Shown one piece after another: positions 1 to 64,000 of a stretch of DNA of 64,000 nucleotides. Both the position numbers and the translations under genes were made by a program. Positions within the stretch are counted from its first letter, which is position 1, and the number at the start of each line of letters is the position of its first letter. The DNA comes from Picochlorum sp. 'celeri'. Lineage: Eukaryota; Chlorophyta; Trebouxiophyceae. Location of the stretch: positions 41,653 through 105,652 of the forward strand of contig JAACMV010000001.1 in the NCBI GenBank assembly GCA_010909725.1, read 5' to 3'. Under the pieces are notes generated by a model. That model made no database searches. It saw only the letters and a list, made by a program, of their open reading frames with translations, and was not told where the DNA came from.

Positions 1-3000
1 CCAAGGATCGAAACCCTTCAACGTTCTTGCCACATGGAACATCACCACGGCTGCCAACAAACGAGGCGAGCTCAATTGGCGCTTTAAAGCTCGCAGATTC
101 GGAGTGGTCGGGCTGCAAGAACATCAGGTGAAGAAGACTCCTTCCCGCTGGCCTTCAGCCACTATAACGTCATACAGAGGTACAAGACGGGGCCAGGGGT
201 CAGAGGAGTAGCACTAGTGACACACAGGAGCTTGCCCACGACAGAGCTCAGAGAAGTGTATGCCCATCCCAACATCATATGGGCCCAAGTGCACCAATTG
301 ATGCCAGTCACCTGCTACATCGCCACCATATATGTACCAGGGGAGCATCTGAGAGACGATCGGCGTGAGACGTTGAACAAACTGGATGCAGACATACACA
401 GGATCACAGCGGAACGACCGGGGACTCCCATCGTCATCATGGGGGACTTCAATCACGACTTGGAGGCCATGAGCACACTTATAGCACGGAGAGGATGGCC
501 ATTAGATTTGCTGCCAGTGCGAGGAGATGCCACGACATTCTGGAGGCCGTACACACAAGGAAGCGCTATAGACCACATTCTGGTGAACGAACATGCCCGG
601 GCTCACCTGCTATCAGCCAGGGTACTCACCACAGAAGGCATCCTCAGACCACTGGCCACTCGCTGTGAAATGTAGATACGAAGGACAACGCGATATCCCA
701 CCGCCACCAAGGAAGAAACTGCGGCTGGATCACATTGGGACTGCCAAAGACATTACGGAGCACAACTATTGGGACAACTTGCTACAGACTACGGAGGACA
801 TGGAGGCTGACATGGAACACACAGACTCAGACGACACACAAACAGAAAGCCTTACAGGAAAATTCAAAGACACATTGCACAGGATTCTTGACCAGCAAGA
901 ATGCTTCCAAACCACATGCCATCGAGAAAAGCCCATCAGAAAGCTCGCACACAGAACGCGCACAGTGCTACGAAAACGAAACCAGGCACGACTGGAGATG
1001 TACAGAAACCTCAACACAGATACGATGGCAACATACAAGGCATTACACCAGGAAGCGAGGCGATTGGTCAGGCGTGACCAGACATCCAGTTTTCCACAAA
1101 TTTGTACACAGGGCTGCAGCATCAGGACCTTCCAGTCCCATCTTCTGGAAGTTCATCAATATTCTACAAGGCAAACAGAGACGCCCACAGACACTGCAGC
1201 CCGTGAAAGGACCAAATAACCAGCTGCAACTGAGCAACGAAGCCATTTTGCACACGACGGAGCAGCATTACAGCACATTGGCAGGAGACGCAGATACCAC
1301 CCCCCTTGCGTCCTGGGCCGAGCGATGCCCCTTGCCCCAGCGACCAACTGTTTTGGAACTGAATAGAGACATCACGTGGCCGGAGATACAAGCAGCTCTC
1401 GCCACCTCTGCAACAGGCAAAGCACCAGGAATGGATGGCATCACAAACGAGGTGTACAAACTCTGCAAAGAAGACACCCCTAGGTTGGAACCCACAACGC
1501 CAATGGGAAGAATGCTACTGGAAGCCGTCAACTCTATCTTTCATGGCGACATCCCAGAAGACATGCACAGCAGCCTGATCATTAGCATCCCCAAGCCACA
1601 CAAAGATGCTACGCTGTTGGATAATCACCGAGGCATCTCACTCATCGACTGCCTCCTCAAACTCACTACCAGGGTGATATCAGACAGGCTGCACACACAT
1701 CTTATAGAAGGACCCAGAGGACTCAGAAAGGAACAAGCTGGATTCAGGAGACTACAGGAATGCCCAGCTCAAGCTGCGACGCTCTACGAGATTGCCCTCC
1801 GCCGACGCCAAGTGGACCAGGTCACCTTTGCTGCATTTATAGATCTGAGGAAGGCATTCGATATGGTCCCCCCATCGGTGCCTTCTTCATGTACTTAGTT
1901 CTCGGGGGGATCAACGGCGCGTGTTTGAACTTCATCTCCACGCTGTATTCTCACGCTGGTTTCAAATGCTCTGCAGGTACTCTTACTTCCACAGGTACGT
2001 TCCCATTGCATAGAGGCTGTCAAGCAAGGCGATACGTTGAGCCCAGTCCTGTTCGATCTCTTCATCGACTCGGCACTGGATGGGATCCGAGGCGTGACGG
2101 TACCGAATCTTCGCGACCCGCACGCCGATGAAGACCCCTCGTATTCCTGGCCTGCTCTTCGCAGACGACACAGTCATCCTGGCCGAGTCGGAAGCAGAGC
2201 TGCAGGACTCGCTCAACACGTTCGGAGACTGGTGTGACCGCTTCGGCATGGAGGTGGGACACGCCAAGTGTGGCGTCATGGCACTGGGCGTAGGTGATTC
2301 TACACAGCTGCCTCGACCCACCATTGGCCCCCTTCACCATCCAACGCGGTACCATTCCAGTAGTCGACAAGTACACGTATCTCGGGATTGTTGTCACCCC
2401 ACGCCTCGACGTGAGGGACATCATCCTCGACAGACGTGCCAAAGGCTTGACGACGCTCCGAGCCATGCGACCTATGCTGGCGACGCCCTCTATCCCCCTG
2501 AAGAGCAAGCTGCTGGCCATCAAGGGACAACTGATCCCTCAATTGGCATACGGAGGCGAACTGTTTGGCTCGAGCGGGCGCACCGCGATGCAACCGCTCC
2601 AACGAGTGCTCTCCATGGCTCTCAACATGGCTGTCAGGGGCAAGGCCACTCATACGATAGCGTCCGCGACACTATCCACTGAGCTGGAACTCCCCACCCT
2701 TCCTGCCATCGCTGCAGGGAGAGCAGCCCGAGCCTGGAGGAAGTGGCCAGACCTTGGGACTTGGATTGGCACCTTGTTTAGCCTTCCCAGCCAGGAGGGG
2801 CAAACACACGCTGGTCCAACGCACCAAGGCCTTCATGACGAGGTTACAGAATCGACATGGATTCTCGCCCCTCGACAAGACCCCCAAGCAACTCGCCAAA
2901 CAGGTCCAATTCATCACATGGGAACGCCACCTCGCCCGCCGACAGGAGCCACTCTTCAGGGTACAACGCCTATGTGGAAGCTAATTATTCCTCTACAAAT

Positions 3001-3740
3001 AATTATCTTTCATATTCGACTGCGGAGGGGTACTCTCGTGGCTTTCACTGGCTGGCACGGGCCCGCACAGGAGGGATCTGGAATGCTGCCCGAGGCTCTC
3101 GAGCTCGGCTGCTTCCTCCCTCCTATCGCTCCTGGTGCGCCAGCTGCGACAGCCACACGGAGGACTCTCTCGAACATCTCTTGCTTCACTGCCCGGCATA
3201 CGCGGTGATTCGCGACCAAGTGCTGGGAGATTGGATCGCCAAGGCCATCACCGCTCATCAGGAAACTGGAGTGGACCCTTGGCAATGGTTGTTGGGGTCA
3301 GCCAGAGGAGAACATCCAGAGTTTGCTCCTACAGCATCCTCCGAGCATGTTACTCAAGCCCCTGTCCCCCTGTGCATCGCCACAGCCCATTTTTTGGGGA
3401 TTAGTATGCCCACCCATATGGGAAAGCTGTGGGGATCAGAGGAAGTGGTGTCTTTGATGGAGGCACGGGACAGGGCGAGGGAGGAGGCAACCTCCCCTCA
3501 CAACATAGGTCACCGAGAGTCAAGTGGTGCCCATGGATCTTTCGTTGGAAGATCATGGTGGCTCTCAACCACAGGCCTCAGCTCTTTTGGAGAGTCATGC
3601 TGAGGCGCCCACTACCCCAAGAGCCGACGCCCCCTGGGTACGGCAGTTCTCACGGCGCACTTCCAGTGAGGTTTCTGAGACTCCTCTCAGGAGACCCCAC
3701 GCCGAGGCGCCCTGTGGAACACGTGGACTGTGGTATATAA
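1..3740 (+). pseudogene. LINE copy 1 polyprotein (endonuclease-RT), frame-broken
   Basis: One reading frame in the intact family is split here over several frames. Visible in order: endonuclease/exonuclease/phosphatase-type domain (IVIMGDFNHD near 430-462, AIDHILVN near 566-590), a basic linker, and the RT domain (GKAPGMDGITNEVY near 1420, SLIDCLLKL near 1640, FADD at about 2157-2168). The C-terminal Cys/His motif CASC...HLLLHC lies near 3139-3190, and the stop TAA is embedded in TATATAA at 3735-3740. Breaks include the extra base near 637, one near 1870 in a C run, one near 2018 and one near 2330. Some may be consensus errors, but the break near 637 recurs in copy 2 and is probably real. Confidence 0.85.
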
Positions 3741-3952
3741 GGAGTGAGTTTTTAGTGGGTGCAACCCCCACATCACCTGGGCAGGTATCTGGGCACCTGT
3801 GCATGGTTGGCTTCATGCACACGTGGCAGAGCTCCACATGTCGAGGTTCTCTTGATTCAGGAGCCCTGCTGGGAGGACCACCTGCATTTGAGGCAGCAGG
3901 CCAACTCCGTGTCAGTCGAGATTTTCTCACTTCTTTGTATGCTTACAGAACC

Positions 3953-3981
<29 letters not shown>
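1..3981 (+). mobile_element. LINE (non-LTR retrotransposon) copy 1, cut by window edge
   Basis: The copy is cut on the left by the window edge, begins in the endonuclease region and ends in a 29-nt poly(A) at 3953-3981. No long terminal repeats are seen; the order endonuclease, reverse transcriptase, Cys/His motif, 3' UTR, poly(A) is that of a non-LTR element. It is nearly base-identical to the copies at 3994-8529, 8891-13414, 47918-51661 (inverted) and 51662-55101 (inverted). Copies 1 and 2 share one extra base just before the endonuclease SDHW motif (about 634-641 and 5181-5188) that copies 3 and 4 lack, so these two share a recent ancestor. Confidence 0.95.
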
Positions 3982-3983
<2 letters not shown>

Positions 3984-4000
3984 GAATTTGCGTAAAAAAA

Positions 4001-4020
4001 AAAAAGAAAATTTTCTTTTT
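4001..4020. repeat. Perfect 20-bp palindrome at the LINE 5' end
   Basis: AAAAAGAAAATTTTCTTTTT equals its own reverse complement and ends exactly one base before the ATG at 4021. The equivalent stretch in copy 3 (8891-8915) has the same design with altered A and T run lengths. As RNA it would fold into a hairpin immediately upstream of the start codon. Confidence 0.85.
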
Positions 4021-7000
4021 ATGGCTCAACCTTGCGAAACAGCTAGAAATGTAGCCAATTCCACGTCTTCTGGAAGAAATTCTCTCGAATCTCGCATTGA
4101 GCTGCTGTTGCAGTTGCGCCGCGCACATGGACATTCCCCATTGGGAAATCGAATTTGCGTCTGGGGCCCGCAGCACCAATCTGGCGAGCGATTCTGGAGG
4201 TTTTAGAAAGAAACGTGGATGCGGCCACACTTCGTCACGTGAAACAAGTTCGAGCGGCTAGGCAAAGGATTGACCAACGGGTCCGCTTTGACGTCTGGAT
4301 CGAGGGTGCTCCCGAAGGGCTGATCAGCCAGATCGCGGCATCCCGAACGGCTTGGAAGTGGCATATTCGACGCCACAAAAACTACAGGCGCAGAATGAAG
4401 GAGCAGGCACGACGACACGGGCCGGAAGACACTGGAGCTGGACATACTCGGACCCGCCGAGTTGGGGCTGGATTCCCTTGGGCCCGCCAAGGAAGAGGAG
4501 GAGCAGGCGATGGTCGGAGCAGCCGAACCGAGGAGAACAACGCACGCCAAGGATCGAAACCCTTCAACGTTCTTGCCACATGGAACATCACCACGGCTGC
4601 CAACAAACGAGGCGAGCTCAATTGGCGCTTTAAAGCTCGCAGATTCGGAGTGGTGGGGCTGCAAGAACATCAGGTTGAAGAAGACTCCTTCCCGCTGGCC
4701 TTCAGCCACTATAACGTCATACAGAGGTACAAGACGGGGCCAGGGGTCAGAGGAGTAGCACTAGTGACACACAGGAGCTTGCCCACGACAGAGCTCAGAG
4801 AAGTGTATGCCCATCCCAACATCATATGGGCCCAAGTGCACCAATTGATGCCAGTCACCTGCTACATCGCCACCATATATGTACCAGGGGAGCATCTGAG
4901 AGACGATCGGCGTGAGACGTTGAACAAACTGGATGCAGACATACACAGGATCACAGCGGAGCGACCGGGGAACTCCCATCGTCATCATGGGGGACTTCAA
5001 TCACGACTTGGAGGCCATGAGCACACTTATAGCACGGAGAGGATGGCCATTAGATTTGCTGCCAGTGCGAGGAGATGCCACGACATTCTGGAGGCCGTAC
5101 ACACAAGGAAGCGCGATAGACCACATTCTGGTGAACGAACATGCCCGGGCTCACCTGCTATCAGCCAGGGTACTCACCACAGAAGGCATCCTCAGACCAC
5201 TGGCCACTCGCTGTGAAATGTAGATACGAAGGACAACGCGATATCCCACCGCCACCAAGGAAGAAACTGCGGCTGGATCACATATGGGACTGCCAAAGAC
5301 ATTACGGAGCACAACTATTGGGACGACTTGCTACAGACTACGGAGGACATGGAGGCTGACATGGAACACACAGACTCAGACGACACACAAGCAGAAAGCT
5401 TACAGGGAAATTCAAGACACATTGCACAGGATTCTTGACCAGCAAGAATGCTTCCAGACCACATGCCATCGAGAAAAGCCCATCAGAAAGCTTGCACACA
5501 GAACGCGCACAGTGCTACGGAAACGAAACAAGGCAGCGACTGGAGATGTACAGAAACCTCAACACAGATACGATGGCAACATACAAGGCATTACACCAGG
5601 AAGCGAGGCGATTGGTCAGGCGTGACCAGACATCCAGTTTTCACAAATTTGTAGCACAGGGCTGCAGCATCAGGACCTTCCAGTCCCATCTTCTGGAAGT
5701 TCATCAATATCCTACAAGGCAAACAGAGACGCCCACAGACACTGCAGCCCGTGAAAGGACCAAATAATCAGCTGCAACTGAGCAACGAAGCCATCTTGCA
5801 CACGACGGAGCAGCATTACAGCACATTGGCAGGAGACGCAGATACCACCCCCCTTGCGTCCTGGGCCGAGCGATGCCCCTTGCCCCAGCGACCAACTGTT
5901 TTGGAACTGAATAGAGACATCACGTGGCCGGAGATACAAGCAGCTCTCGCCACCTCTGCAACAGGCAAAGCACCAGGAATGGATGGCATCACAAACGAGG
6001 TGTACAAACTCTGCAAAGAAGACACCCCTAGGTTGGAACCCACAACGCCAATGGGAAGAATGCTACTGGAAGCCGTCAACTCTATCTTTCATGGCGACAT
6101 CCCAGAAGACATGCACAGCAGCCTGATCATTAGCATCCCCAAGCCACACAAAGATGCTACGCTGTTGGATAATCACCGAGGCATCTCACTCATCGACTGC
6201 CTCCTCAAACTCACTACCAGGGTGATATCAGACAGGCTGCACACACATCTTATAGAAGGACCCAGAGGACTCAGAAAGGAACAAGCTGGATTCAGGAGAC
6301 TACAGGAATGCCCAGCTCAAGCTGCGACGCTCTACGAGATTGCCCTCCGCCGACGCCAAGTGGACCAGGTCACCTTTGCTGCATTTATAGATCTGAGGAA
6401 GGCATTCGATATGGTCCCCCATCGGTGCCTTCTTCATGTACTTAGTTCTCGGGGGATCAACGGCGCGTGTTTGAACTTCATCTTCCACGCTGTATTCTCA
6501 CGCTGGTTTCAAATGCTCTGCAGGTACTCTTACTTCCACAGGTACGTTCCCATTGCATAGAGGCGTCAAGCAAGGCGATACGTTGAGCCCAGTCCTGTTC
6601 GATCTCTTCATCGACTCGGCACTGGATGGGATCCGAGGCGTGACGGTACCGAATCTTCGCGACCCGCACGCCTGATGAAGACCCCTCGTATTCCTGGCCT
6701 GCTCTTCGCAGACGACACAGTCATCCTGGCCGAGTCGGAAGCAGAGCTGCAGGACTCGCTCAACACGTTCGGAGACTGGTGTGACCGCTTCGGCATGGAG
6801 GTGGGACACGCCAAGTGTGGCGTCATGGCACTGGGCGTAGGTGATTCTACACAGCTGCCTCGACCCACCATTGGCCCCTTCACCATCCAACGCGGTACCA
6901 TTCCAGTAGTCGACAAGTACACGTATCTCGGGATTGTTGTCACCCCACGCCTCGACGTGAGGGACATCATCCTCGACAGACGTGCCAAAGGCTTGGCGAC

Positions 7001-8283
7001 GCTCCGAGCCATGCGACCTATGCTGGCGACGCCCTCTATCCCCCTGAAGAGCAAGCTGCTGGCCATCAAGGGACAACTGATCCCTCAATTGGCATACGGA
7101 GGCGAACTGTTTGGCTCGAGCGGGCGCACCGCGATGCAACCGCTCCAACGAGTGCTCTCCATGGCTCTCAACATGGCTGTCAGGGGCAAGGCCACTCATA
7201 CGATAGCGTCCGCGACACTATCCACTGAGCTGGAACTCCCCACCCTTCCTGCCATCGCTGCAGGGAGAGCAGCCCGAGCCTGGAGGAAGTGGCCAGACCT
7301 TGGGACTTGGATTGGCACCTTGTTTAGCCTCCCAGCCAGGAGGGGCAAACACACGCTGGTCCAACGCACCAAGGCCTTCATGACGAGGTTACAGAATCGA
7401 CATGGATTCTCGCCCCTCGACAAGACCCCCAAGCAACTCGCCAAACAGGTCCAATTCCTCACGTGGGAACGCCACCTCGCCACCGACAGGAGCCACTCTT
7501 CAGGGTACAACGCCTATATGGAAGCTAATTATTCATCTACAAATAATTATCTTTCATATTCGACTGCGGAGGGGTACTCTCGTGGCTTTCACTGGCTTGC
7601 ACGGGCCCGCACAGGAGGGATCTGGAATGCTGCCCGAGGCTCTCGAGCTCGGCTGCTTCCTCCCTCCTATCGCTCCTGGTGCGCCAGCTGCGAAAGCCAC
7701 ACGGAGGACTCTCTCGAACATCTCTTGCTTCACTGCCCGGCATACGCGGTGATTCGCGACCAAGTGCTGGGAGATTGGATCGCCAAGGCCATCACCGCTC
7801 ATCAGGAAACTGGAGTGGACCCTTGGCAATGGTTGTTGGGGTCAGCCAGAGGAGAACATCCAGAGTTTGCTCCTACAGCATCCTCCGAGCATGTTACTCA
7901 AGCCCCTGTCCCCCTGTGCATCGCCACAGCCCATTTTTTGGGGATTAGTATGCCCACCCATATGGGAAAGCTGTGGGGATCAGAGGAAGTGGTGTCTTTG
8001 ATGGAGGCACGGGACAGGGCGAGGGAGGAGGCAACCTCCCCTCACAACATAGGTCACCGAGAGTCAAGTGGTGCCCATGATCTTTCGTTGGAAGATCATG
8101 GTGGCTCTCAACCACAGGCCTCAGCTCTTTTGGAGAGTCATGCTGAGGCGCCCACTACCCCAAGAGCCGACGCCCCCTGGGTACGGCAGTTCTCACGGCG
8201 CACTTCCCAGTGAGGTTTCTGAGACTCCTCTCGGAGACCCCACGCCGAGGCGCCCTGTGGAACACGTGGACTGTGGTATATAA
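4021..8283 (+). pseudogene. LINE copy 2 polyprotein, frame-broken
   Basis: Begins MAQPCETARN directly after the palindrome. The N-terminal ~180 residues are basic and of unknown function, followed by the endonuclease domain from about 4565 (VLATWN, LQEHQ, MGDFNHD), the RT domain with FADD at about 6706-6717, and the C-terminal C-x2-C-x9-H-x4-C motif near 7680-7730. The longest undisturbed stretch is the 512-codon frame at 6675-8213. Breaks lie near 4970, 5185, 5285, 5395, 6484 and 6672. The stop TAA is at 8281-8283 within TATATAA. Confidence 0.85.
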
Positions 8284-8495
8284 GGAGTGAGTTTTTAGTG
8301 GGTGCAACCCCCACATCACCTGGGCAGGTATCTGGGCACCTGTGCATGGTTGGCTTCATGCACACGTGGCAGAGCTCCACATGGTCGAGGTTCTCTTGAT
8401 TCAGGAGCCCTGCTGGGAGGACCACCTGCATTTGAGGCAGCAGGCCAACTCCGTGTCAGTCGAGATTTTCTCACTTCTTTGTATGCTTACAGAAC

Positions 8496-8529
<34 letters not shown>

Positions 8530-8530
<1 letters not shown>

Positions 8531-8890
8531 CAGGCGATGGTCGGAGCAGCCGAACCGAGGAGAACAACGCACGCCAAGGATCGAAACCCTTCAACGTTCT
8601 TGCCACATGGAACATCACCACGGCTGCCAACAAACGAGGCGAGCTCAATTGGCGCTTTAAAGCTCGCAGATTCGGAGTGGTGGGGCTGCAAGAACATCAG
8701 GTTGAAGAAGACCTCCTTCCCGCTGGCCTTCAGCCACTATAACGTCATACAGAGGTACAAGACGGGGCCAGGGGTCAGAGGAGTAGCACTAGTGACACAC
8801 AGGAGCTTGCCCACGACAGAGCTCAGAGAAGTGTATGCCCATCCCAACATCATATGGGCCCAAGTGCACCAATTGATGCCAGTCACCTGG
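8530..8890 (+). mobile_element. LINE fragment lacking both ends
   Basis: These 361 bp match copy 2 positions 4503 to about 4862 (end of the N-terminal region and first part of the endonuclease). The left end is fused directly to the poly(A) of copy 2 and the right end to the extreme 5' end of copy 3. The missing remainder of this copy does not reappear after copy 3 at 13415, so a simple nested insertion does not explain it. Confidence 0.9.
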
Positions 8891-8915
8891 AAAAAAAAGA
8901 AAATTTTTCTTTTTT

Positions 8916-11900
8916 ATGGCTCAACCTTGCGAAACAGCTAGAAATGTAGCCAATTCCACGTCTTCTGGAAGAAATTCTCTCGAATCTCGCATTGAGCTGC
9001 TGTTGCAGTTGCGCCGCGCACATGGACATTCCCCATTGGGAAATCGAATTTGCGTCTGGGGCCCGCAGCACCAATCTGGCGAGCGATTCTGGAGGTTTTT
9101 AGAAAGAAACGTGGATGCGGCCACACTTCGTCACGTGAAACAAGTTCGAGCGGCTAGGCAAAGGATTGACCAACGGGTCCGCTTTGACGTCTGGATCGAG
9201 GGTGCTCCCGAAGGGCTGATCAGCCAGATCGCGGCATCCCGAACGGCTTGGAAGTGGCATATTCGATGTCACAAAAACTACAGGCGCAGAATGAAGGAGC
9301 AGGCACGACGACACGGGCCGGAAGACACTGGAGCTGGACATACTCGGACCCGCCGAGTTGGGGCTGGATTCCCTTGGGCCCGCCAAGGAAGAGGAGGAGC
9401 AGGCGATGGTCGGAGCAGCCGAACCGAGGAGAACAACGCACGCCAAGGATCGAAACCCTTCAACGTTCTTGCCACATGGAACATCACCACGGCTGCCAAC
9501 AAACGAGGCGAGCTCAATTGGCGCTTTAAAGCTCGCAGATTCGGAGTGGTGGGGCTGCAAGAACACCAGGTTGAAGAAGACTCCTTCCCGCTGGCCTTCA
9601 GCCACTATAACGTCATACAGAGGTACAAGACGGGGCCAGGGGTCAGAGGAGTAGCACTAGTGACACACAGGAGCTTGCCCACGACAGAGCTCAGAGAAGT
9701 GTATGCCCATCCCAACATCATATGGGCCCAAGTGCACCAATTGATGCCAGTCACCTGCTACATCGCCACCATATATGTACCAGGGGAGCATCTGAGAGAC
9801 GATCGGCGTGAGACGTTGAACAAACTGGATGCAGACATACACAGGATCACAGCGGAGCGACCGGGGACTCCCATCGTCATCATGGGGGACTTCAATCACG
9901 ACTTGGAGGCCATGAGCACACTTATAGCACGGAGAGGATGGCCATTAGATTTGCTGCCAGTGCGAGGAGATGCCACGACATTCTGGAGGCCGTACACACA
10001 AGGAAGCGCTATAGACCACATCCTGGTGAACGAACATGCCCGGGCTCAACTGCTCTCAGCCAGGGTACTCACCACAGAAGCATCCTCAGACCACTGGCCA
10101 CTCGCTGTGAAATGTAGATACGAAGGACAACGCGATATCCCGCCGCCATCCAAGGAAGAAACTGCGGCTGGATCACATTAGGACTGCCAAAGACATTACG
10201 GAGCACAACTATTGGGACAACTTGCTACAGACTACGGAGGACATGGAGGCTGACATGGAACACACAGACCCAGACGACACACAAGCAGAAAGCCTTACAG
10301 GAAAATTCAAAGACACATTGCACAGGATTCTTGACCAGCAAGAATGCTTCCAAACTACATGCCATCGAGAAAAGCCAATCAGAAAGCTCGCACACAGAAC
10401 GCGCACAGTGCTACGGAAACGAAACCAGGCACGACTGGAGATGTACAGAAACCTCAACACAGATACGATGGCAACATACAAGGACATTGCACCAGGAAGC
10501 GAGGCGATTGGTCAGGCGTGACCAGACATCCAGTTTTCACAAATTTGTGCACAGGGCTGCAGCATCAGGACCTTCCAGTCCCATCTTCTGGAAGTTCATT
10601 AATATCCTACAAGGCAAACAGAGACGCCCACAGACACTGCAGCCCGTGAAAGGACCAAATAACCAGCTGCAACTGAGCAACGAAGCCATCTTGCACACGA
10701 CGGAGCAGCATTACAGCACATTGGCAGGCGACGCAGATACCACCACCCTGGCGTCCTGGGCCGAGCGATGCCCCTTGCCCCAGCGACCAACTGTTTTGGA
10801 ACTGAATAGAGACATCACGTGGCCGGAGATACACGCAGCTCTGGCCACCTCTGCAACAGGCAAAGCACCAGGAATGGATGGCATCACAAACGAGGTGTAC
10901 AAACTCTGCAAAGAAGACACCCCGAGGTTGGAACCCACAACGCCAATGGGAAGAATGCTACTGGAAGCCGTCAACTCTATCTTTCATGGCGACATCCCAG
11001 AAGACATGCACAGCAGCCTGATCATTAGCATCCCCAAGCCACACAAAGATGCTACGCTGTTGGATAATCACCGAGGCATCTCACTCATCGACTGCCTCCT
11101 CAAACTCACCACCAGGGTGATATCAGACAGGCTGCACACACATCTTATAGAAGGCCCCAGAGGACTCAGAAAGGAACAAGCTGGATTCAGGAGACTACAG
11201 GAATGCCCAGCTCAAGCTGCGACGCTCTACGAGATTGCCCTCCGCCGACGCCAAGTGGACCAGGTCACCTTTGCTGCATTTATAGATCTGAGGAAGGCAT
11301 TCGATATGGTCCCCCATCGGTGCCTTCTTCATGTACTTAGTTCTCGGGGGATCAACGGCGCGTGTTTGAACTTCATTTCCACGCTGTATTCTCACGCTGG
11401 TTTCAAATGCTCTGCAGGTCCTCTTACTTCCACAGGTACGTTCCCATTGCATAGAGGCGTCAAGCAAGGCGATACGTTGAGCCCAGTCCTGTTCGATCTC
11501 TTCATCGACTCGGCACTGGATGGGATCCGAGGCGTGACGGTCCCGAATCTTCGAGACCCGCACGCTGATGAAGACCCTCGTATTCCTGGCCTGCTCTTCG
11601 CAGACGACACAGTCATCCTGGCCGAGTCAGAAGCAGAGCTGCAGGACTCGCTCAACACGTTCGGAGACTGGTGTGACCGCTTCGGCATGGAGGTGGGACA
11701 CGCCAAGTGTGGCGTCATGGCACTGGGCGTAGGTGATTCTACACAGCTGCCTCGACCCACCATTGGCCCCTTCACCCTCCAACGCGGTACCATTCCAGTA
11801 GTCGACAAGTACACGTATCTCGGGATTGTTGTCACCCCACGCCTCGACGTGAGGGACATCATCCTCGACAGACGTGCCAAAGGCTTGACGACGCTCCGAG

Positions 11901-13174
11901 CCATGCGCCCCATGCTGGCGACGCCCTCTATCCCCCTGAAGAGCAAGCTGCTGGCCATCAAGGGACAACTGATCCCTCAATTGGCATACGGAGGCGAACT
12001 GTTTGGCTCGAGCGGGCGCACAGTGATGCAACCGCTCCAACGAGTGCTCTCCATGACTCTCAACATGGCTGTCAGGGGCAAGGCCACTCATACGATAGCG
12101 TCCGCGACACTATCCACTGAGCTGGAACTCCCCACCCTTCCTGCCATCGCTGCAGGGAGAGCAGCCCGAGCCTGGAGGAAGTGGCCAGACCTTGGGACTT
12201 GGATTGGCACCTTGTTTAGCCTCCCAGCCAGGAGGGGCAAACACACGCTGGTCCAACGCACCAAGGCCTTCATGACGAGGTTACAGAATCGACATGGATT
12301 CTCGCCCCTCGACAAGACCCCCAAGCAACTCGCCAAACAGGTCCAATTCCTCACGTGGGAACGCCACCTCGCCACCGACAGGAGCCACTCTTCAGGGTAC
12401 AACGCCTATGTGGAAGCTAATTATTCATCTACAAATAATTATCTTTCATATTCGACTGCGGAGGGGTACTCTCGTGGCTTTCACTGGCTTGCACGGGCCC
12501 GCACAGGGGGGATCTGGAATGCTGCCCGAGGCTCTCGAGCTCGGCTGCTTCCTCCCTCCTATCGCTCCTGGTGCGCCAGCTGCGACAGCCACACCGAGGA
12601 CTCTCTCGAACATCTCTTGCTTCACTGCCCGGCATACGCGGTGATTCGCGACCAAGTGCTGGGAGATTGGATCGCCAAGGCCATCACCGCTCATCAGGAA
12701 ACTGGAGTGGACCCTTGGCAATGGTTGTTGGGGTCAGCCAGAGGAGAACATCCAGAGTTTGCTCCTACAGCATCCTCCGAGCATGTTACTCAAGCCCCTG
12801 TCCCCCTGTGCATCGCCACAGCCCATTTCCTGGGGATTAGTATGCCCACCCATATGGGAAAGCTGTGGGGATCAGAGGAAGTGGTGTCTTTGATGGAGGC
12901 ACGGGACAGGGCGAGGGAGGAGGCAACCTCCCCTCACAACATAGGTCACCGAGAGTCAAGTGGTGCCCATGGTCTTTCGTTGGAAGATCATGGTGGCTCT
13001 CAACCACAGGCCTCAGCTCTTTTGGAGAGTCATGCTGAGGCACCCACTACCCCAAGAGCCGACGCCCCCTGGGTACGGCAGTTCTCACGGAGCACTTCCA
13101 GTGAGGTTTCTGAGACTCCTCTCAGAGACCCCACGCCGAGGCGCTCTGTGGAACACGTGGACTGTGGTATATAA
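8916..13174 (+). CDS. LINE copy 3 endonuclease-reverse transcriptase polyprotein, two frameshifts from intact
   Basis: Open from 8916 to 10181 and, in another frame, to 13174. Comparison with the other copies places one extra base near 10148 (gccatccaagg against gccaccaagg) and one near 10482 (aaggacattgc against aaggcattac), so only two single-base changes separate it from an uninterrupted ORF. Domains: basic N-terminal region (residues ~1-180); AP-endonuclease-like EEP domain (~185-410: ATWN, LQEHQ, GDFNHD, AIDHILVN, SDHWPL); linker with a basic segment; RT (~600-860: PGMDGITNE, GFRRLQECPAQ, FIDLRKAFD, GVKQGDTLSP, LLFADDTV at about 11593); thumb; C-terminal C-x2-C-x9-H-x4-C at about 12570-12620. 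No RNase H or gag-like zinc knuckles are seen. The protein nicks target DNA and reverse-transcribes its own RNA. The clade cannot be assigned by eye. Confidence 0.88.
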
Positions 13175-47948: not shown

Positions 47949-50900
47949 GTTCTGTAAGCATACAAAGAAGTGAGAAAATCTCGACTGACACGGAGTTGGC
48001 CTGCTGCCTCAATGCAGGTGGTCCTCCCAGCAGGGCTCCTGAATCAAGAGAACCTTGACCAGTGGAGCTCTGCCACGTGTGCATGAAGCCAACCATGCAC
48101 AGGTGCCCAGATACCTGCCCAGGTGATGTGGGGGTTGCACCCACTAAAAACTCACTCCTTATATACCACAGTCCACGTGTTCCACAGAGCGCCTCGGCGT
48201 GGGGTCTCTGAGAGGAGTCTCAGAAACCTCACTGGAAGTGCTCCGTGAGAACTGCCGTACCCAGGGGGCGTCGGCTCTTGGGGTAGTGGGCGCCTCAGCA
48301 TGACTCTCCAAAAGAGCTGAGGCCTGTGGTTGAGAGCCACCATGATCTTCCAACGAAAGACCATGGGCACCACTTGACTCTCGGTGACCTATGTTGTGAG
48401 GGGAGGTTGCCTCCTCCCTCGCCCTGTCCCGTGCCTCCATCAAAGACAACCACTTCCTCTGATCCCCACAGCTTTCCCATATGGGTGGGCATACTAATCC
48501 CCAAAAAATGGGCTGTGGCGATGCACAGGGGGACAGGGGCTTGAGTAACATGCTCGGAGGATGCTGTAGGAGCAAACTCTGGATGTTCTCCTCTGGCTGA
48601 CCCCAACAACCATTGCCAAGGGTCCACTCCAGTTTCCTGATGAGCGGTGATGGCCTTGGCGATCCAATCTCCCAGCACTTGGTCGCGAATCACCGCGTAT
48701 GCCGGGCAGTGAAGCAAGAGATGTTCGAGAGAGTCCTCCGTGTGGCTTTCGCAGCTGGCGCACCAGGAGCGATAGGAGGGAGGAAGCAGCCGAGCTCGAG
48801 AGCCTCGGGCAGCATTCCAGATCCCTCCTGTGCGGGCCCGTGCCAGCCAGTGAAGCCACGAGAGTACCCCTCCGCAGTCGAATATGAAAGATAATTATTG
48901 TAGAGGAATAATTAGCTTCCATATATGCGTTGTACCCTGAAGAGTGGCTCCTGTCGGTGGCGAGGTGACGTTCCCATGTGATGAATTGGACCTGTTTGGC
49001 GAGTTGCTTGGGGGTCTTGTCGAGGGGCGAGAATCCATGTCGATTCTGTAACCTCGTCATGAAGGCCTTGGTGCGTTGGACCAGCGTGTGTTTGCCCCTC
49101 CTGGCTGGAAGGCTAAACAAGGTGCCAATCCAAGTCCCAAGGTCTTGGCCACTTCCTCCAGGCTCGGGCTGCTCTCCCTGCAGCGATGGCAGGAAGGGTG
49201 GGGAGTTCCAGCTCAGTGGATAGTGTCGAGGACGCTATCGTATGAGTGGCCTTGCCCCCTGACAGCCATGTTGAGAGCCATGGAGAGCACTCGTTGGAGC
49301 GGTTGCATCGCGGTGCGCCCGCTCGAGCCAAAACAGTTCGCCTCCGTATGCCAATTGAGGGATCAGTTGTCCCTTGATGGCCAGCAGCTTGCTCTTCAGG
49401 GGGATAGAGGGCGTCGCCAGCATAGGTCGCATGGCTCGGAGCGTCGCCAAGCCTTTGGCACGTCTGTCGAGGATGATGTCCCTCACGTCGAGGCGTGGGG
49501 TGACAACAATCCCGAGATACGTGTACTTGTCGACTACTGGAATGGTACCCGCGTTGGATGGTGAAGGGGCCAATGGTGGGTCGAGGCAGCTGTGTAGAAT
49601 CACCTACGCCCAGTGCCATGACGCCACACTTGGCGTGTCCCACCTCCATGCCGAAGCGGTCACACCAGTCTCCGAACGTGTTGAGCGAGTCCTGCAGCTC
49701 TGCTTCTGACTCGGCCAGGATGACTGTGTCGTCTGCGAAGAGCAGGCCAGGAATACGAGGGTCTTCATCAGCGTGCGGGTCGCGAAGATTCGGGACCGTC
49801 ACGCCTCGGATCCCATCCAGCGCCGAGTCGATGAAGAGATCGAACAGGACTGGGCTCAACGTATCGCCTTGCTTGACACCTCTATGCAATGGGAACGTAC
49901 CTGTGGAAGTAAGAGTACCTGCAGAGCATTTGAAACCAGCGTGAGAATACAGCGTGGAATGAAGTTCAAACACGCGCCGTTGATCCCCCGAGAACTAAGT
50001 ACATGAAGAAGGCACCGATGGGGGACCATATCGAATGCCTTCCTCAGATCTATAAATGCAGCAAAGGTGACCTGGTCCACTTGGCGTCGGCGGAGGGCAA
50101 TCTCGTAGAGCGTCGCAGCTTGAGCTGGGCATTCCTGTAGTCTCCTGAATCCAGCTTGTTCCTTTCTGAGTCCTCTGGGTCCTTCTATAAGATGTGTGTG
50201 CAGCCTGTCTGATATCACCCTGGTAGTGAGTTTGAGGAGGCAGTCGATGAGTGAGATGCCTCGGTGATTATCCAACAACGTAGCATCTTTGTGTGGCTTG
50301 GGGATGCTGATGATCAGGCTGCTGTGCATGTCTTCTGGGATGTCGCCATGAAAGATAGAGTTAACGGCTTCCAGCAGCATTCTTCCCATTGGTGTTGTGG
50401 GTTCCAACCTAGGGGTGTCTTCTTTGCAGAGTTTGTACACCTCGTTTGTGATGCCATCCATTCCTGGTGCTTTGCCTGTTGCAGAGGTGGCGAGAGCTGC
50501 TTGTATCTCCGGCCACGTGATGTCTCTATTCAGTTCCAAAACAGTTGGTCGCTGTGGCAAGGGGCATCGCTCGGCCCAGGACGCAAGGGGAGTGGTATCT
50601 GCGTCGCCTGCCAATGTGCTGTAATGCTGCTCCGTCGTGTGCAAAATGGCTTCATTGCTCAGTTGCAGCTGATTATTTGGTCCTTTCACGGGCTGCAGTG
50701 TCTGTGGGCGTCTCTGTTTGCCTTGTAGAACGTTAATGAACTTCCAGAAGATGGGACTGGAAGGTCCTGATGCTGCAGCCCGGTGCACAAATTTGTGAAA
50801 ACTGGATGTCTGGTCACGCCTGACCAATCGCCTCGCTTCCTGGTGTAATGCCTTGTATGTTGCCATCGTATCTGTGTTGAGGTTTCTGTACATCTCCAGT

Positions 50901-51661
50901 CGCGCCTTGTTTCGTTTCCGTAGCACTGTGCGCGTTCTGTGTGCAAGCTTTCTGATGGGCTTTTCTCGATGGCATGTGGTCTGGAAGCATTCTTGCTGGT
51001 CAAGAATCCTGTGCAATGTGTCTTTGAATTTTCCCTGTAAAGCTTTCTGCGTGTGTGTCGTCCGAGTCTGTGTGTTCCATGTCAGCCTCCATGTCCTCCG
51101 TAGTCTGTAGCAAGTCGTCCCAATAGTTGTGCTCCGTAATGTCTTTGGCAGTCCCTATGTGATCCAGCCGCAGTTTCTTCCTTGGTGGCGGTGGGATATC
51201 GCGTTGTCCTTCGTATCTGCATTTCACAGCGAGTGGCCAGTGGTCTGAGGATGCCTCTGTGGTGAGTACCCTGGCTGATAGCAGGTGAGCCCGGGCATGT
51301 TCGTTCACCAGAATGTGGTCTATCGCGCTTCCTTGTGTGTACGGCCTCCAGAATGTCGTGGCATCTCCTCGCACTGGCAGCAAATCTAATGGCCATCCTC
51401 TCCGTGCTATAAGTGTGCTCATGGCCTCCAAGTCGTGATTGAAGTCCCCCATGATGACGATGGGAGTCCCCGGTCGTTCCGCTGTGATCCTGTGTATGTC
51501 TGCATCCAGTTTGTTCAACGTCTCACGCCGATCGTCTCTCAGATGCTCCCCTGGTACATATATGGTGGCGATGTAGCAGGTGACTGGCATCAATTGGTGC
51601 ACTTGGGCCCATATGATGTTGGGATGGGCATACACTTCTCTGAGCTCTGTCGTGGGCAAGC
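47918..51661 (-). mobile_element. LINE copy 4, 5'-truncated, inverted
   Basis: Poly(T) at 47918-47947 is the poly(A) tail of a - strand copy. The 5' end stops inside the endonuclease coding region (equivalent to copy 1 position about 230) and is fused directly to the poly(A) of copy 5 (poly(T) 51662-51682). 5' truncation is typical of target-primed reverse transcription. Confidence 0.93.
48159..51659 (-). pseudogene. LINE copy 4 polyprotein, 5'-truncated and frame-broken
   Basis: Begins within SLPTTELREVYAHPN of the endonuclease. The SDHWPL motif is intact and in frame (TTEASSDHW, near 51245), unlike in copies 1 and 2. The RT frame is open at 49856-51016 and, after a break near 49955, at 49113-49973 with FADD near 49727-49738. 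The Cys/His motif is near 48720-48770 and the stop at 48159. Breaks lie near 51035, 49955, 49550, 49330 and 48450. Confidence 0.85.
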
Positions 51662-54600
51662 TTTTTTTTTTTTTTTTTTTTTGGTTCTGTAAGCATACAA
51701 AGAAGTGAGAAAATCTCGACTGACACGGAGTTGGCCTGCTGCCTCAAATGCAGGTGGTCCTCCCAGCAGGGCTCCTGAATCAAGAGAACCTCGACCATGT
51801 GGAGCTCTGCCACGTGTGCATGAAGCCAACCATGCACAGGTGCCCAGATACCTGCCCAGGTGATGTGGGGGTTGCACCCACTAAAAACTCACTCCTTATA
51901 TACCACAGTCCACGTGTTCCACAGAGCGCCTCGGCGTGGGGTCTCTGAGAGGAGTCTCAGAAACCTCACTGGAAGTGCGCCGTGAGAACTGCCGTACCCA
52001 GGGGGCGTCGGCTCTTGGGGTAGTGGGCGCCTCAGCATGACTCTCCAAAAGAGCTGAGGCCTGTGGTTGAGAGCCACCATGATCTTCCAACGAAAGACCA
52101 TGGGCACCACTTGACTCTCGGTGACCTATGTTGTGAGGGGAGGTTGCCTCCTCCCTCGCCCTGTCCCGTGCCTCCATCAAAGACACCACTTCCTCTGATC
52201 CCCACAGCTTTCCCATATGGGTGGGCATACTAATCCCCAAAAAATGGGCTGTGGCGATGCACAGGGGGACAGGGGCTTGAGTAACATGCTCGGAGGATGC
52301 TGTAGGAGCAAACTCTGGATGTTCTCCTCTGGCTGACCCCAACAACCATTGCCAAGGGTCCACTCCAGTTTCCTGATGAGCGGTGATGGCCTTGGCGATC
52401 CAATCTCCCAGCACTTGGTCGCGAATCACCGCGTATGCCGGGCAGTGAAGCAAGAGATGTTCGAGAGAGTCCTCCGTGTGGCTGTCGCAGCTGGCGCACC
52501 AGGAGCGATAGGAGGGAGGAAGCAGCCGAGCTCGAGAGCCTCGGGCAGCATTCCAGATCCCTCCTGTGCGGGCCCGTGCCAGCCAGTGAAAGCCACGAGA
52601 GTACCCCTCCGCAGTCGAATATGAAAGATAATTATTTGTAGAGGAATAATTAGCTTCCATATATGCGTTGTACCCTGAAGAGTGGCTCCTGTCGGCGGCG
52701 AGGTGACGTTCCCATGTGATGAATTGGACCTGTTTGGCGAGTTGCTTGGGGGTCTTGTCGAGGGGCGAGAATCCATGTCGATTCTGTAACCTCGTCATGA
52801 AGGCCTTGGTGCGTTGGACCAGCGTGTGTTTGCCCCTCCTGGCTGGAAGGCTAAACAAGGTGCCAATCCAAGTCCCAAGGTCTGGCCACTTCCTCCAGGC
52901 TCGGGCTGCTCTCCCTGCAGCGATGGCAGGGAGGGTGGGGAGTTCCAGCTCAGTGGATAGTGTCGAGGACGCTATCGTATGAGTGGCCTTGCCCCTGACA
53001 GCCATGTTGAGAGCCATGGAGAGCACTCGTTGGAGCGGTTGCATCGCCGTGCGCCCGCTCGAGCCAAACAGTTCGCCTCCGTAGGCCAGCTGAGGGATCA
53101 GTTGTCCCTTGATGGCCAGCAGCTTGCTCTTCAGGGGGATAGAGGGCGTCGCCAGCATGGGGCGCATGGCTCGGAGCGTCGCCAAGCCTTTGGCACGTCT
53201 GTCGAGGATGATGTCCCTCACGTCGAGGCGTGGGGTGACAACAATCCCGAGATACGTGTACTTGTCGACTACTGGAATGGTACCGCGTTGGATGGTGAAG
53301 GGGCCAATGGTGGGTCGAGGCAGCTGTGTAGAATCACCTACGCCCAGTGCCATGACGCCACACTTGGCGTGTCCCACCTCCATGCCGAAGCGGTCACACC
53401 AGTCTCCGAACGTGTTGAGCGAGTCCTGCAGCTCTGCTTCCGACTCGGCCAGGATGACTGTGTCGTCTGCGAAGAGCAGGCCAGGAATACGAGGGGTCTT
53501 CATCAGCGTGCGGGTCGCGAAGATTCGGGACCGTCACGCCTCGGATCCCATCCAGTGCCGAGTCGATGAAGAGATCGAACAGGACTGGGCTCAACGTATC
53601 GCCTTGCTTGACGCCTCTATGCAATGGGAACGTACCTGTGGAAGTAAGAGTACCTGCAGAGCATTTGAAACCAGCGTGAGAATACAGCGTGGAGATGAAG
53701 TTCAAACACGCGCCGTTGATCCCCCGAGAACTAAGTACATGAAGAAGGCACCGATGGGGGACCATATCGAATGCCTTCCTCAGATCTATAAATGCAGCAA
53801 AGGTGACCTGGTCCACTTGGCGTCGGCGGAGGGCAATCTCGTAGAGCGTCGCAGCTTGAGCTGGGCATTCCTGTAGTCTCCTGAATCCAGCTTGTTCCTT
53901 TCTGAGTCCTCTGGGTCCTTCTATAAGATGTGTGTGCAGCCTGTCTGATATCACCCTGGTAGTGAGTTTGAGGAGGCAGTCGATGAGTGAGATGCCTCGG
54001 TGATTATCCAACAACGTAGCATCTTTGTGTGGCTTGGGGATGCTGATGATCAGGCTGCTGTGCATGTCTTCTGGGATGTCGCCATGAAAGATAGAGTTGA
54101 CGGCTTCCAACAGCATTCTTCCCATTGGTGTTGTGGGTTCCAACCTGGGGGGTGTCTTCTTTTGCAGAGTTTGTACACCTCGTTTGTGATGCCATCCATT
54201 CCTGGTGCTTTGCCTGTTGCAGAGGTGGCCAGAGCTGCTTGTATCTCCGGCCCACGTGATGTCTCTATTCAGTTCCAAAACAGTTGGTCGCTGGGGCAAG
54301 GGGCATCGCTCGGCCCAGGACGCAAGGGGGGTGGGTATCTGCGTCTCCTGCCAATGTGCTGTAATGCTATGCTGCTCCGTCGTGTGCAAAATGGCTTCGT
54401 TGCTCAGTTGCAGCTGGTTATTTGGTCCTTTCACGGGCTGCAGTGTCTGTGGGCGTCTCTGTTTGCCTTGTAGAATATTGATGAACTTCCAGAAGATGGG
54501 ACTGGAAGGTCCTGATGCTGCAGCCCTGTGTACAAATTTGTGGAAACTGGATGTCTGGTCACGCCTGACTCAATCGCCTCGCTTCCTGGTGTAATGCCTT

Positions 54601-56762: not shown

Positions 56763-57125
56763 AGAATACAATAAAAAAACCCGACCAAAAATGTTATTTG
56801 CCGGTTACTTGCTGGTTACTTGCCGGTTACTTGCCGGATACTTGCCGGTTACTTGCCGGTTACTTGCCGGTTACTTGCTGGATACTTGCCGGTTACTTGC
56901 CGGTTACTTGCCGGTTACTTGCCGGTTACTTGCTGGATACTTGACGGTTACTTGCCGGTTACTTGCTGGATACTTGCCGGTTACTTGCCGGTTACTTGCT
57001 GGATACTTGCCGGTTACTTGCCGGTTACTTGCCGGTTACTTGCCGGTTACTTGTTGGATACTTGCTGGATACTTGACGGTTACTTTGCCGTGGTCGTCCT
57101 TTTTTATTGTCATCATTTACGGACG
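56763..57125. repeat. Short inverted-repeat element (family A) carrying a minisatellite
   Basis: The left end ACAATAAAAAAACCCGACC and the right end GGTCGTCCTTTTTATTGTC, followed by TTTACGG, form imperfect terminal inverted repeats. The inside is almost wholly the 11-bp minisatellite at 56798-57083. Related ends are found at 59013-59095, 60099-60214 and 61219-61306. Confidence 0.55.
56798..57083. repeat. Minisatellite, 26 units of 11 bp
   Basis: 286 bp made of exactly 26 units of TTGCCGGTTAC with no indels. Variation is confined to units such as TTGCTGGATAC, TTGACGGTTAC, TTGCCGGATAC and TTGTTGGATAC. Because 11 is not a multiple of three all frames translate to the same 11-residue repeat, which creates spurious ORFs here. 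Confidence 0.97.
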
Positions 57126-61554: not shown

Positions 61555-64000
61555 TCAATTGATAGTGAAACAGTCTATCTTTACCATCCACTCTGCAGCA
61601 TCCTCATCCACGTGTACCAGGGTAGCTCCCATTCTATCGCATGCTGCTCGCAACTTTGACACAAGCAGCCTCCTCGCGTTCTGTGACCGAAACATCTTCT
61701 TCGAGGTCCCCCTGAAGACCAGGATCGCCGGTTGGTTGAGGCCCTGCCCCGGCTCTTTGGATGCTGTGCCGGCTATGGCCATGCCTGCTCTGGTGATTGT
61801 GACGCTCTTGTGCAGGTCAACGTTTGTCAAGTCGACTGGATATAGGTACCGAATCTCGCCGACTCCTTCCCTGCCCACAACGAAGTTCTCGACTGAAGCA
61901 AGATCTTTTGGAGACAGCGCTCTGATGTGGTCGATGGTGGGCCTGCAGTAGTATCCAGCAGGCAACATGGGTCGACGTTTCTCCATGGTCAGCTCTGGGA
62001 CTGTGGTCCGCACTGTAGTGTGCGACTCACGAGATCTTGTGTTTCCATGCCCCCATTGGGTCTCTGTGCTTGGGTCCAAAGTCCTTGTGGATTGGGGGCT
62101 TCTGCTCCGTGCCCTTGCAATGTACAGACTGCCAAGGTGATGTGCCAGGTCCTGGAGCCGTGGATAGTCGTACAACACGGTGGGCGGTATTTCAATTTGC
62201 AACGCAGTAGACAGTTGTTCAGTCGCGCTGACCGACTGTAACGAGTCCAGTTCTCCGGCGATGTTGTCAGACATGCCTAGAGGCGCACCCAACAGTCTCT
62301 CAATTGTGTGCGTCACGTACAAAGTCACATCCTCCAAGCTCGAAAATCGGTCTGCACCCCTTTCATCTGCAATCGTGGAAATGTCAAGTTTTGTGCCTGG
62401 AGCCCCATCTCGGGACGATGATGGTGCCGAGGCCCCGAACACATCCTGATCATACGCTCCAGCAATAATCAGCCCAGAAGACCGGGCTGGTCCAAGGATG
62501 GCCGAGAGCAGTGAAAGGCCCTCCTGTGGCGCGATTGGCCTCATGCCCGTGGAAAACGAATCCGCCGAAAGGCCAGCATGGGCGACCATTCCAATGCCAC
62601 TCCACGGTCCCCAGGCAACCGCCGTGACATCCATGCCACATTCTCTCTTCTTGCTGCATATTGCATTCAACTGACGATTTGCGAAGGTATATGCTAGCTG
62701 ACCAGCATTACCTATGATGCTACTTATACTGCTGTATCCAAGAGTATACTGCGCCCTGTGAAGGTTTGCATGGTCCAGCATCAAATCCAGGGAGGCACAT
62801 TTGGGAGCGGCAGTATGCAGCAAGTCCCCGAGATTTGCTCTGAACAGCATCTTGTCCTGCGGTGCACATACATAGTACCATTAGTGGGTGATCTCAATGG
62901 CGAGAGCGGCGTAAACGGCAAGCTTGATGCCGTGCCTCACCTTCAAAACTCCGGATGTGTGATGCATGCCCTGCAGATGGGATGACGATGGGCCTTCTAG
63001 CAATTGAGGCAAGTCAGATGCGAATCTTGCATCAGCCTTGACACATGTTTGCAGTGATAATCTTCCTGTGTCATTTAGGTCTGGTCGAGTGGGCATGCCC
63101 CTCCCAGACCGTATCAAATGCTGCCCGTGGCTCGCCAGCCACTCTGAAACAAGGGTGCCAATGCCTCCAAAGGCTCCGGTGACAACTGCAGTGGCTCCAA
63201 AACTTTGATCCTGAATTTCTGAATGATCCAATGTGGTTTTATGAAGAGTATAATAGGGTTCATACCCTGGAGTGGCCATGACTCTTCCCTGCAGTATGAC
63301 GTCCCCAGCCCCAACAGGAAATTTCACACCTGGCAGGCGTGGGAGCGCAGACAAGGGTGGCACCTCCAAATAGCGCACGGCCGACGTAGAAATCTCTGCA
63401 GATATCACCTTGGCCAATGAGGATGCCAGGGACTGCATGGCGTCGCTCCTCCGGGAATGGTTGTCAGTTCCTCCCATGACAAAGGTGAGAGCATTACACG
63501 GCCAAATACCATCCAGTTTTGCTACTTCCAGTGGGGCGTACCATTCTGTGAATCCCATCTCCATCGAGTTTTCTCCCCTCAAGATACAAGAGTCAATCGA
63601 GGAAACGGGTGTGGATGAAGTCCATCCGGTGTCTACAAGGTACTCGCGAGCGTACAATGATGGCGCAGGCAACCTTTGTTGAGATTCCTCCGAAAGCAGT
63701 GGCACTGTGGAGGATTGTAGTCCTTGAATCGATTGATCTTTGGTTTGCACGGCTACTGTATTATCACCAAAGTCCTTGTGAGATGAGATGAAAGGGTCAG
63801 CAAACCCAGAAATGCAGTGGTACAGGCCCAGTTTAACTGGCACCTGTCTGCGTTGGCCTGTGGGCCAGGCAGCGAGAGCCAAGTGCATAGCAGCATCCAG
63901 TGTGCAAGCAGAAAACGGAACTGATTTCCCGGGAACTGCTGTGCTTGCAGCGTATTTTGGCCCGGTCGCCTGATATCTGAACACGTGAACGCTCTTGGGC
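61555..64000 (-). CDS. Type I polyketide synthase C-terminus (DH-KR-ACP) fused to a Nup98-type autoproteolytic domain; partial
   Basis: Reads leftward; the 5' part lies beyond the window. Order: C-terminal half of a dehydratase fold (FSACTLDAAMHLALAAWP, about 63850-63930); linker/structural KR subdomain; ketoreductase with ATAVVTGAFGGIGTLVSEW (about 63140-63200). A KR-internal intron 62857-62940 (84 nt, GTGAGG...GCAG) joins HTSGVLK to DKMLFRANLG. Then GYSSISSIIGNAGQLAYTFA, NRQLNAI and VAWGPW (catalytic Ser/Tyr region); an acyl-carrier domain with the phosphopantetheine serine in GELDSLQSV (about 62237-62263); a ~60-residue Ser/Thr/Arg linker. From about 61956 to the stop comes a peptidase S59-like domain: GYYCRPTIDHIRAL, VENFVVGREGVGEI, YPVDLTNVDL, GQGLNQPAI, KLRAACDRMGATLVHV and EWMVKIDCFTIN*. 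ACP and S59 parts lie in one uninterrupted frame (61555-62856). No thioesterase or reductase release domain is seen. Confidence 0.88.

Follow-up and report, generated by a model that had tools for sequence, protein, structure and literature searches.

In the 64,000-nucleotide stretch of Picochlorum sp. 'celeri' DNA that we analysed (hereafter the window; assembly GCA_010909725.1, contig JAACMV010000001.1, positions 41,653 to 105,652), a giant polyketide synthase (PKS) gene ends with a domain of the type found at the C-terminus of the nucleoporin Nup98, the autoproteolytic domain (APD; Pfam PF04096, peptidase family S59). We propose that the C-terminus of a PKS of the trans-acyltransferase (trans-AT) type has gained a Nup98-type APD, which sits after the last acyl carrier protein (ACP) domain and most likely mediates non-covalent docking. 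In the open literature searched, the APD has one known job, which is to cut Nup98 and anchor it at the nuclear pore. If the domain has been put to a second use repeatedly, on a biosynthetic assembly line, the fold would prove to be a transferable docking module.

The minus-strand frame 62880-61555 is open over 441 codons. Pfam recognises in this frame the second half of a ketoreductase (KR) domain (residues 8-94), an ACP (PP-binding, residues 192-249) and Nucleoporin2 (PF04096, residues 308-439, E 7.5e-20), the last with 72 bits for a gathering score of 28.4, so that the match clears the curated cut-off. This supports the initial annotation, made from the sequence without database searches, which had read a PKS frame with a Nup98-type S59 domain at its end and had designated the profile search as a test. 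The top three matches of the frame in a PDB sequence search are the APDs of Nup145N and Nup98 (E 8.3e-11 to 1.9e-9), the Nup98 motif blocks named in that annotation are present in the translation, and the S59 domain is predicted to adopt the three-dimensional fold of an APD. The C-terminus reads ...VKIDCFTIN, that is, the expected Cys-Phe-Thr with a short tail. The matches of the C-terminal domain of yeast Nup116, which is part of a nucleoporin, to the window domain are partial (residues 14/15-64, E 7.3e-7 to 2.6e-4).

The protein is not Nup98 itself, as had also been stated: a KR, an ACP and a linker precede the domain, no FG repeats are seen by eye in the frame, and an ordinary Nup98 is encoded elsewhere in the genome. 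In Nup98, the APD is preceded by FG repeats, whereas here it is preceded by an ACP. We searched 27,412,692 bases in 30 contigs (the accessible text of PMC7225527 describes the assembly as phased diploid, 27.43 Mbp, with two sets of 15 scaffolds) and found four matches to PF04096: the PKS accounts for two of them, one per haplotype, and a second gene, also in two copies, for the others, which score 156.6 bits. The copy of this second gene on C8 reads as a classical Nup98, with FG repeats and an APD ending in EHFSRYGLDD, next to a frame that by eye contains Nup96-like sequence; the classical reading rests on this copy, the other being on C17. The genome also encodes a Nup88.

The same fusion is found in other proteins. 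A search with residues 296-441 returned eight proteins among 158 candidates, with S59 identities to the window of 37-86%; all eight contain PF04096 and PF00550, and six a KR. A second search, with the S59 part of one relative (P0005), returned 14 proteins among 262 candidates, again with PF04096 and PF00550 in all of them (KR in 11). Five proteins are common to both searches, which leaves 17 distinct clusters (sources jgi, lgn, ena and ncbi), and the two domains occur together in 17 of 17. When nine S59 domains served as queries by themselves in a third search, 49 short proteins came out of 3,664 candidates. Many of them have the appearance of single exons; P0058, judging by its EHFS end, is an ordinary Nup98, and a few others may be too. 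Since these searches accept only proteins whose length is 0.55 to 1.75 times that of the query, they establish that the fusion recurs, not how frequent S59 is outside PKSs.

The recurrence bears on the idea of an artefact, in which the PKS would have been joined, by chance or through an assembly error, to a separate small S59 protein with its start near MEKRRPM. In its favour, a Met directly precedes the S59 part, no transcript evidence came to light and, according to the accessible text of PMC7225527, short reads were not used to polish the published assembly of P. celeri. However, the second haplotype has the same frame (C21:1028635-1029960), with four base substitutions that lie upstream of the linker, an in-frame indel of 3 bases within it and a single substitution in the S59 part, which leaves the protein sequence of that part unchanged. 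An artefact is already contradicted by the same fusion in all 17 clusters, and we give it next to no credit.

A few observations on the relatives may be added. By eye, P0005, P0006, P0008, P0059-P0063 and P0066 have two ACP-like stretches before S59, versus one in the window; P0005, the only one of these nine submitted to Pfam, has two ACPs by this method. P0045 has a ubiquitin-like domain (PF00240) ahead of an S59-type domain, which may be another unusual use or form of the fold. P0013, a short frame without ACP, has a PKS-type S59 end and is called "nuclear pore complex protein Nup98-Nup96" in its source, which is likely a misannotation. It illustrates that searches for Nup98 based on the APD alone will match polyketide synthases in metagenomes.

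The enzyme that carries the domain was characterised from 14 frames of the gene (ten exon frames, three upstream frames and the last one), in which Pfam finds ketosynthase (KS), dehydratase (DH), KR and ACP domains, with KS/KR/ACP modules repeated, and one enoylreductase-like (ER-like) domain; two of the 14 frames have no Pfam match, and about 140 residues at C1:119578-120000 lie outside the Pfam coverage. Neither an acyltransferase (AT, PF00698) nor a thioesterase (TE) was found in these 14 frames. A six-frame search of the genome gives six matches to PF00698, three per haplotype, on C3/C23 and C7/C24, none of which is at the S59-PKS locus or at the other giant PKS loci. Because there is no integrated AT at the locus and discrete AT elsewhere, the gene looks, on the basis of its sequence, like a multimodular trans-AT type I PKS. 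In the accessible text of Shelest et al. 2015 (PMC4661987), the trans-AT organisation is described for almost all multimodular algal PKSs, with which the present enzyme shares its giant size, the KS, DH, KR, ACP and single ER-like domains, and the lack of an integrated AT. TE is among the domains named in that text, which also considers whether one terminal hydrolase-like domain might carry out release, unlike what we see here: the six-frame search gives 23 matches to the thioesterase profile PF00975, none of them at the S59-PKS locus. Regarding a related species, the accessible part of PMC6811619 mentions lower levels at high salt for several P. renovo genes that are named as PKS.

The lack of a TE distinguishes the S59-PKS gene from three other giant PKS loci that we examined in the genome (on C4, C3 and C8, each with a haplotype copy), whose frames match PF00975 in their final part. 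This contrast speaks for the hypothesis that the S59 domain is a catalytic chain-release unit that replaces the thioesterase, an idea that we nevertheless hold to be improbable. We also note that on C3, at 979361-980956, the giant PKS frame (L036, L037) continues for about 530 residues beyond the TE match, and that by eye these residues include a second alpha/beta-hydrolase-like part.

Another candidate function is self-cleavage, as in Nup98, and we examined the cut site in 67 proteins including that of the window. A readable PKS-type C-terminus is present in 50 of them (48 distinct over the last 60 residues): 18 have an ACP in the same frame, and 32 are shorter frames classed by their C-terminal pattern alone, which accepts only F, W or L where Nup98 has Phe and leaves the His position free. 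The 17 rows that were dropped are mostly frames cut before the C-terminus, together with the Nup98-like P0056-P0058, P0045 (ubiquitin-like/S59) and P0055 (divergent end). The His of the His-Phe-Ser motif is replaced by Cys in the window domain, and none of the 50 C-termini has His at this position. The Phe position is occupied by Phe in 27 cases, Trp in 22 and Leu in one; the chain stops there in 21 of the 50 and one residue later in 24. The tail beyond the Phe position is 0-4 residues long (three in the window), and the residue that follows the aromatic one is Ser or Thr in four C-termini only. In the closest relative (P0002), which is 86% identical over the searched region, it is Asn. Two of the 67 proteins contain His-Phe/Trp-Ser/Thr: one is the Nup98 P0058, and the other is P0006, where the motif lies inside the chain and not at the C-terminus. 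The features of an active S59 autopeptidase are therefore absent: there is neither His-Phe-Ser/Thr nor a downstream product to release.

We take the cut position of Nup98 to be after the Phe that corresponds to codon 61569-61567. Since the chain ends at or near the Phe/Trp position, the PKS-type APD may be described as "born cleaved", its sequence ending about where processed Nup98 ends. One may object that the domain could still cut itself between the Phe and Thr of Cys-Phe-Thr, and so mature the synthase as in Nup98, since the Phe is retained and Thr may stand for Ser in the family; the title of PDB entry 5hb6, a T994A mutant of the Chaetomium Nup145N APD fused to Nup145C N, indeed suggests a Thr at the cut site. 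On the contrary, the catalytic His is a Cys, the closest relative has Asn after Phe, a cut here would release only three residues and, where nothing follows the aromatic residue, nothing could be cut off. Maturation by self-cleavage, which the initial annotation had considered, is very improbable.

An APD fold without its cutting site, placed behind the last ACP, is what leads us to read the domain as a C-terminal docking domain. The proposed sequence of events is the following. A multimodular trans-AT type I PKS would have acquired a Nup98-type APD at its C-terminus; this APD would have kept its fold, lost the His-Phe-Ser site and come to end about where cut Nup98 ends. Its free surface could then be offered to a peptide or a loop of a partner, in the way that Nup96 and Nup88 offer theirs to Nup98: the Nup98 APD holds the protein at the pore by binding either Nup96, at its N-terminus, or the Nup88 propeller, according to the accessible text of PMC11148069. 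Docking may position the megasynthase in the cell or, a built-in thioesterase being absent, it may recruit an enzyme for offloading or tailoring to the last ACP. Of the three options listed in the initial annotation (cap, self-cleavage, tether), the tether is the best of the three, by elimination and by analogy.

The C-terminal docking domains of bacterial modular PKSs resemble the present domain in that they follow the last ACP of a subunit, and they have the role that we propose for it. They are short helical or other small elements, and we know of none that has the APD fold.

It may also be that the fold is passive, and merely acts as a C-terminal cap or as an element that stabilises a dimer, with no specific partner. 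That the chain ends cleanly at the fold and that no partner is known speak for this hypothesis. However, in a nine-sequence alignment S59 exceeds KR and ACP in conservation in seven of the eight relatives. P0004, for example, has 44% for S59, 29% for KR, 30% for ACP and 12% for the linker, while P0002 has 92% for KR and 89% for S59; for P0003 and P0009 the KR comparison covers only 12 and 20 positions. The linker is the least conserved piece in each of the eight relatives (11-51%). Moreover, at eight positions the PKS type has a nearly invariant residue that none of the three Nup98s compared shares (E342, Y347, P348, Q383, L387, R416, H423 and D425). The conservation of S59 and these PKS-specific residues suggest a specific interaction, and a passive role is therefore rather unlikely, although it is the most plausible of the alternatives.

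Compared with the APD of Nup98, the PKS type lacks the His of His-Phe-Ser, ends at or near Phe/Trp and has a shorter loop, some 8-10 residues being absent (residues and loop were compared in 24 PKS-type and three Nup98 rows, three divergent rows being left out). In the best tree, a single branch splits all 25 PKS-type domains from the five Nup98-type rows, which we grouped ourselves and which include the odd P0045 (support 92/95, or 95/93 with three divergent rows left out). The tree, the shared PKS-specific residues and the shared shorter loop speak for one origin. A separate and recent fusion near this alga, from its own Nup98, is opposed by the best tree but not rejected, since p-AU is 0.133 when the window domain, together with its two nearest relatives, is grouped with the Nup98 of the alga itself. 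Scans with the S59 alignment confirmed as relatives none of the 51 pattern matches in viral contigs and none of the 43 in bacterial and archaeal genome contigs, and a search of PHROGs gave no match.

Regarding the partner, one possibility is that the PKS is anchored at the nuclear pore or envelope: the born-cleaved APD would compete with Nup98 for Nup88 or for the N-terminus of Nup96, and the product would be made or handed over there. The genome is compatible with this, as it encodes a Nup88 and a Nup98 with RYGLDD after HFS, and the modelled APD fold is complete; we consider this scenario unlikely, a little more so than a passive fold. The PKS-specific residues may mark a changed binding surface, which somewhat favours a partner that is not a nucleoporin.

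Several points weigh against the docking hypothesis. The eight differing positions and the missing loop mean that the partner may not be a nucleoporin, and no partner is known for the predicted docking domain. That the PKS and S59 parts belong to one transcript is a prediction of the gene model. Last, the only EukProt match in the three protein searches is the ordinary Nup98 P0058, in searches whose length limits excluded full-length PKS proteins.

If the docking hypothesis is correct, it could account for the way in which giant trans-AT synthases that lack a thioesterase end or are placed in the cell, and it would provide PKS engineers with a new eukaryotic C-terminal docking domain. The PKS-S59 architecture is not reported in the titles and abstract starts of the open literature on Nup98 or nucleoporin and PKS, on the Pfam names, and on Picochlorum and polyketide, subscription papers and supplements being outside this scope. 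By title and abstract start, the open literature that combines Nup98 and polyketide synthase all concerns the rice blast fungus or rice pathogens, and the word nucleoporin is absent from the main text of PMC4661987, PMC10794256 and PMC12633428.

The features of the 3' part of the gene are collected in the table. The gene was modelled with a simple splice-aware script, from whose first result we removed a 66-base first exon and a 171-base intron that the frame reads through without a stop. The model extends past the window to about C1:127748; it has 13 exons, from C1:127748 to C1:103210, and codes for 7,880 residues with no stop, the 5' end being provisional. The "single open frame" of the initial annotation holds for the last exon and not for the whole gene, because a modelled intron splits the KR, with KR profile positions 1-93 before it and 93-179 after it (Pfam).

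Table. Features of the 3' part of the PKS gene (window positions)
Feature	Position	Strand	Basis or remark
Upstream PKS exon: DH-to-KR region and first half of the last KR	62941..64000	-	Pfam, gene model
Modelled 84-nt GT..AG intron (GTGAGGCA...GCACCGCAG) splitting KR	62857..62940	-	Gene model
Last coding exon: KR end, ACP, linker, S59, stop	61555..62856	-	Open frame; start from gene model; KR matches meet at the intron
KR domain, second half	62599..62859	-	PF08659, E 6e-13; match starts one codon before the modelled exon
Acyl carrier domain, GELDSLQSV serine motif	62134..62307	-	PF00550, E 3.4e-7, 30.9 bits for a cut-off of 20.8
Low-complexity linker	61960..62133	-	Between ACP and S59; 3-base in-frame haplotype indel
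Nup98-type S59 / APD-fold domain, Cys-Phe-Thr, without catalytic His	61564..61959	-	
C-terminal residues CFTIN	61558..61572	-	Phe codon 61569-61567
Stop codon TGA	61557-61555	-	Open frame

Upstream of the PKS gene and outside the window, a frame at C1:130669-131118 by eye resembles an SBP-type DNA-binding domain; it adjoins a 1,267-residue frame (C1:131659-135459) that resembles, also by eye, the reverse transcriptase of a long interspersed nuclear element (LINE). Within the window, the stretches 669-13171 (+) and 49859-54569 (-) are GC-richer and contain frames that repeat one sequence (e.g. FADDTVILAESEAELQDSLNTF); they look like copies of a LINE-type reverse-transcriptase element, the family being assigned by eye. 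A tandem array of 27 copies of the 11-base unit GTTACTTGCCG is present at 56793-57090.
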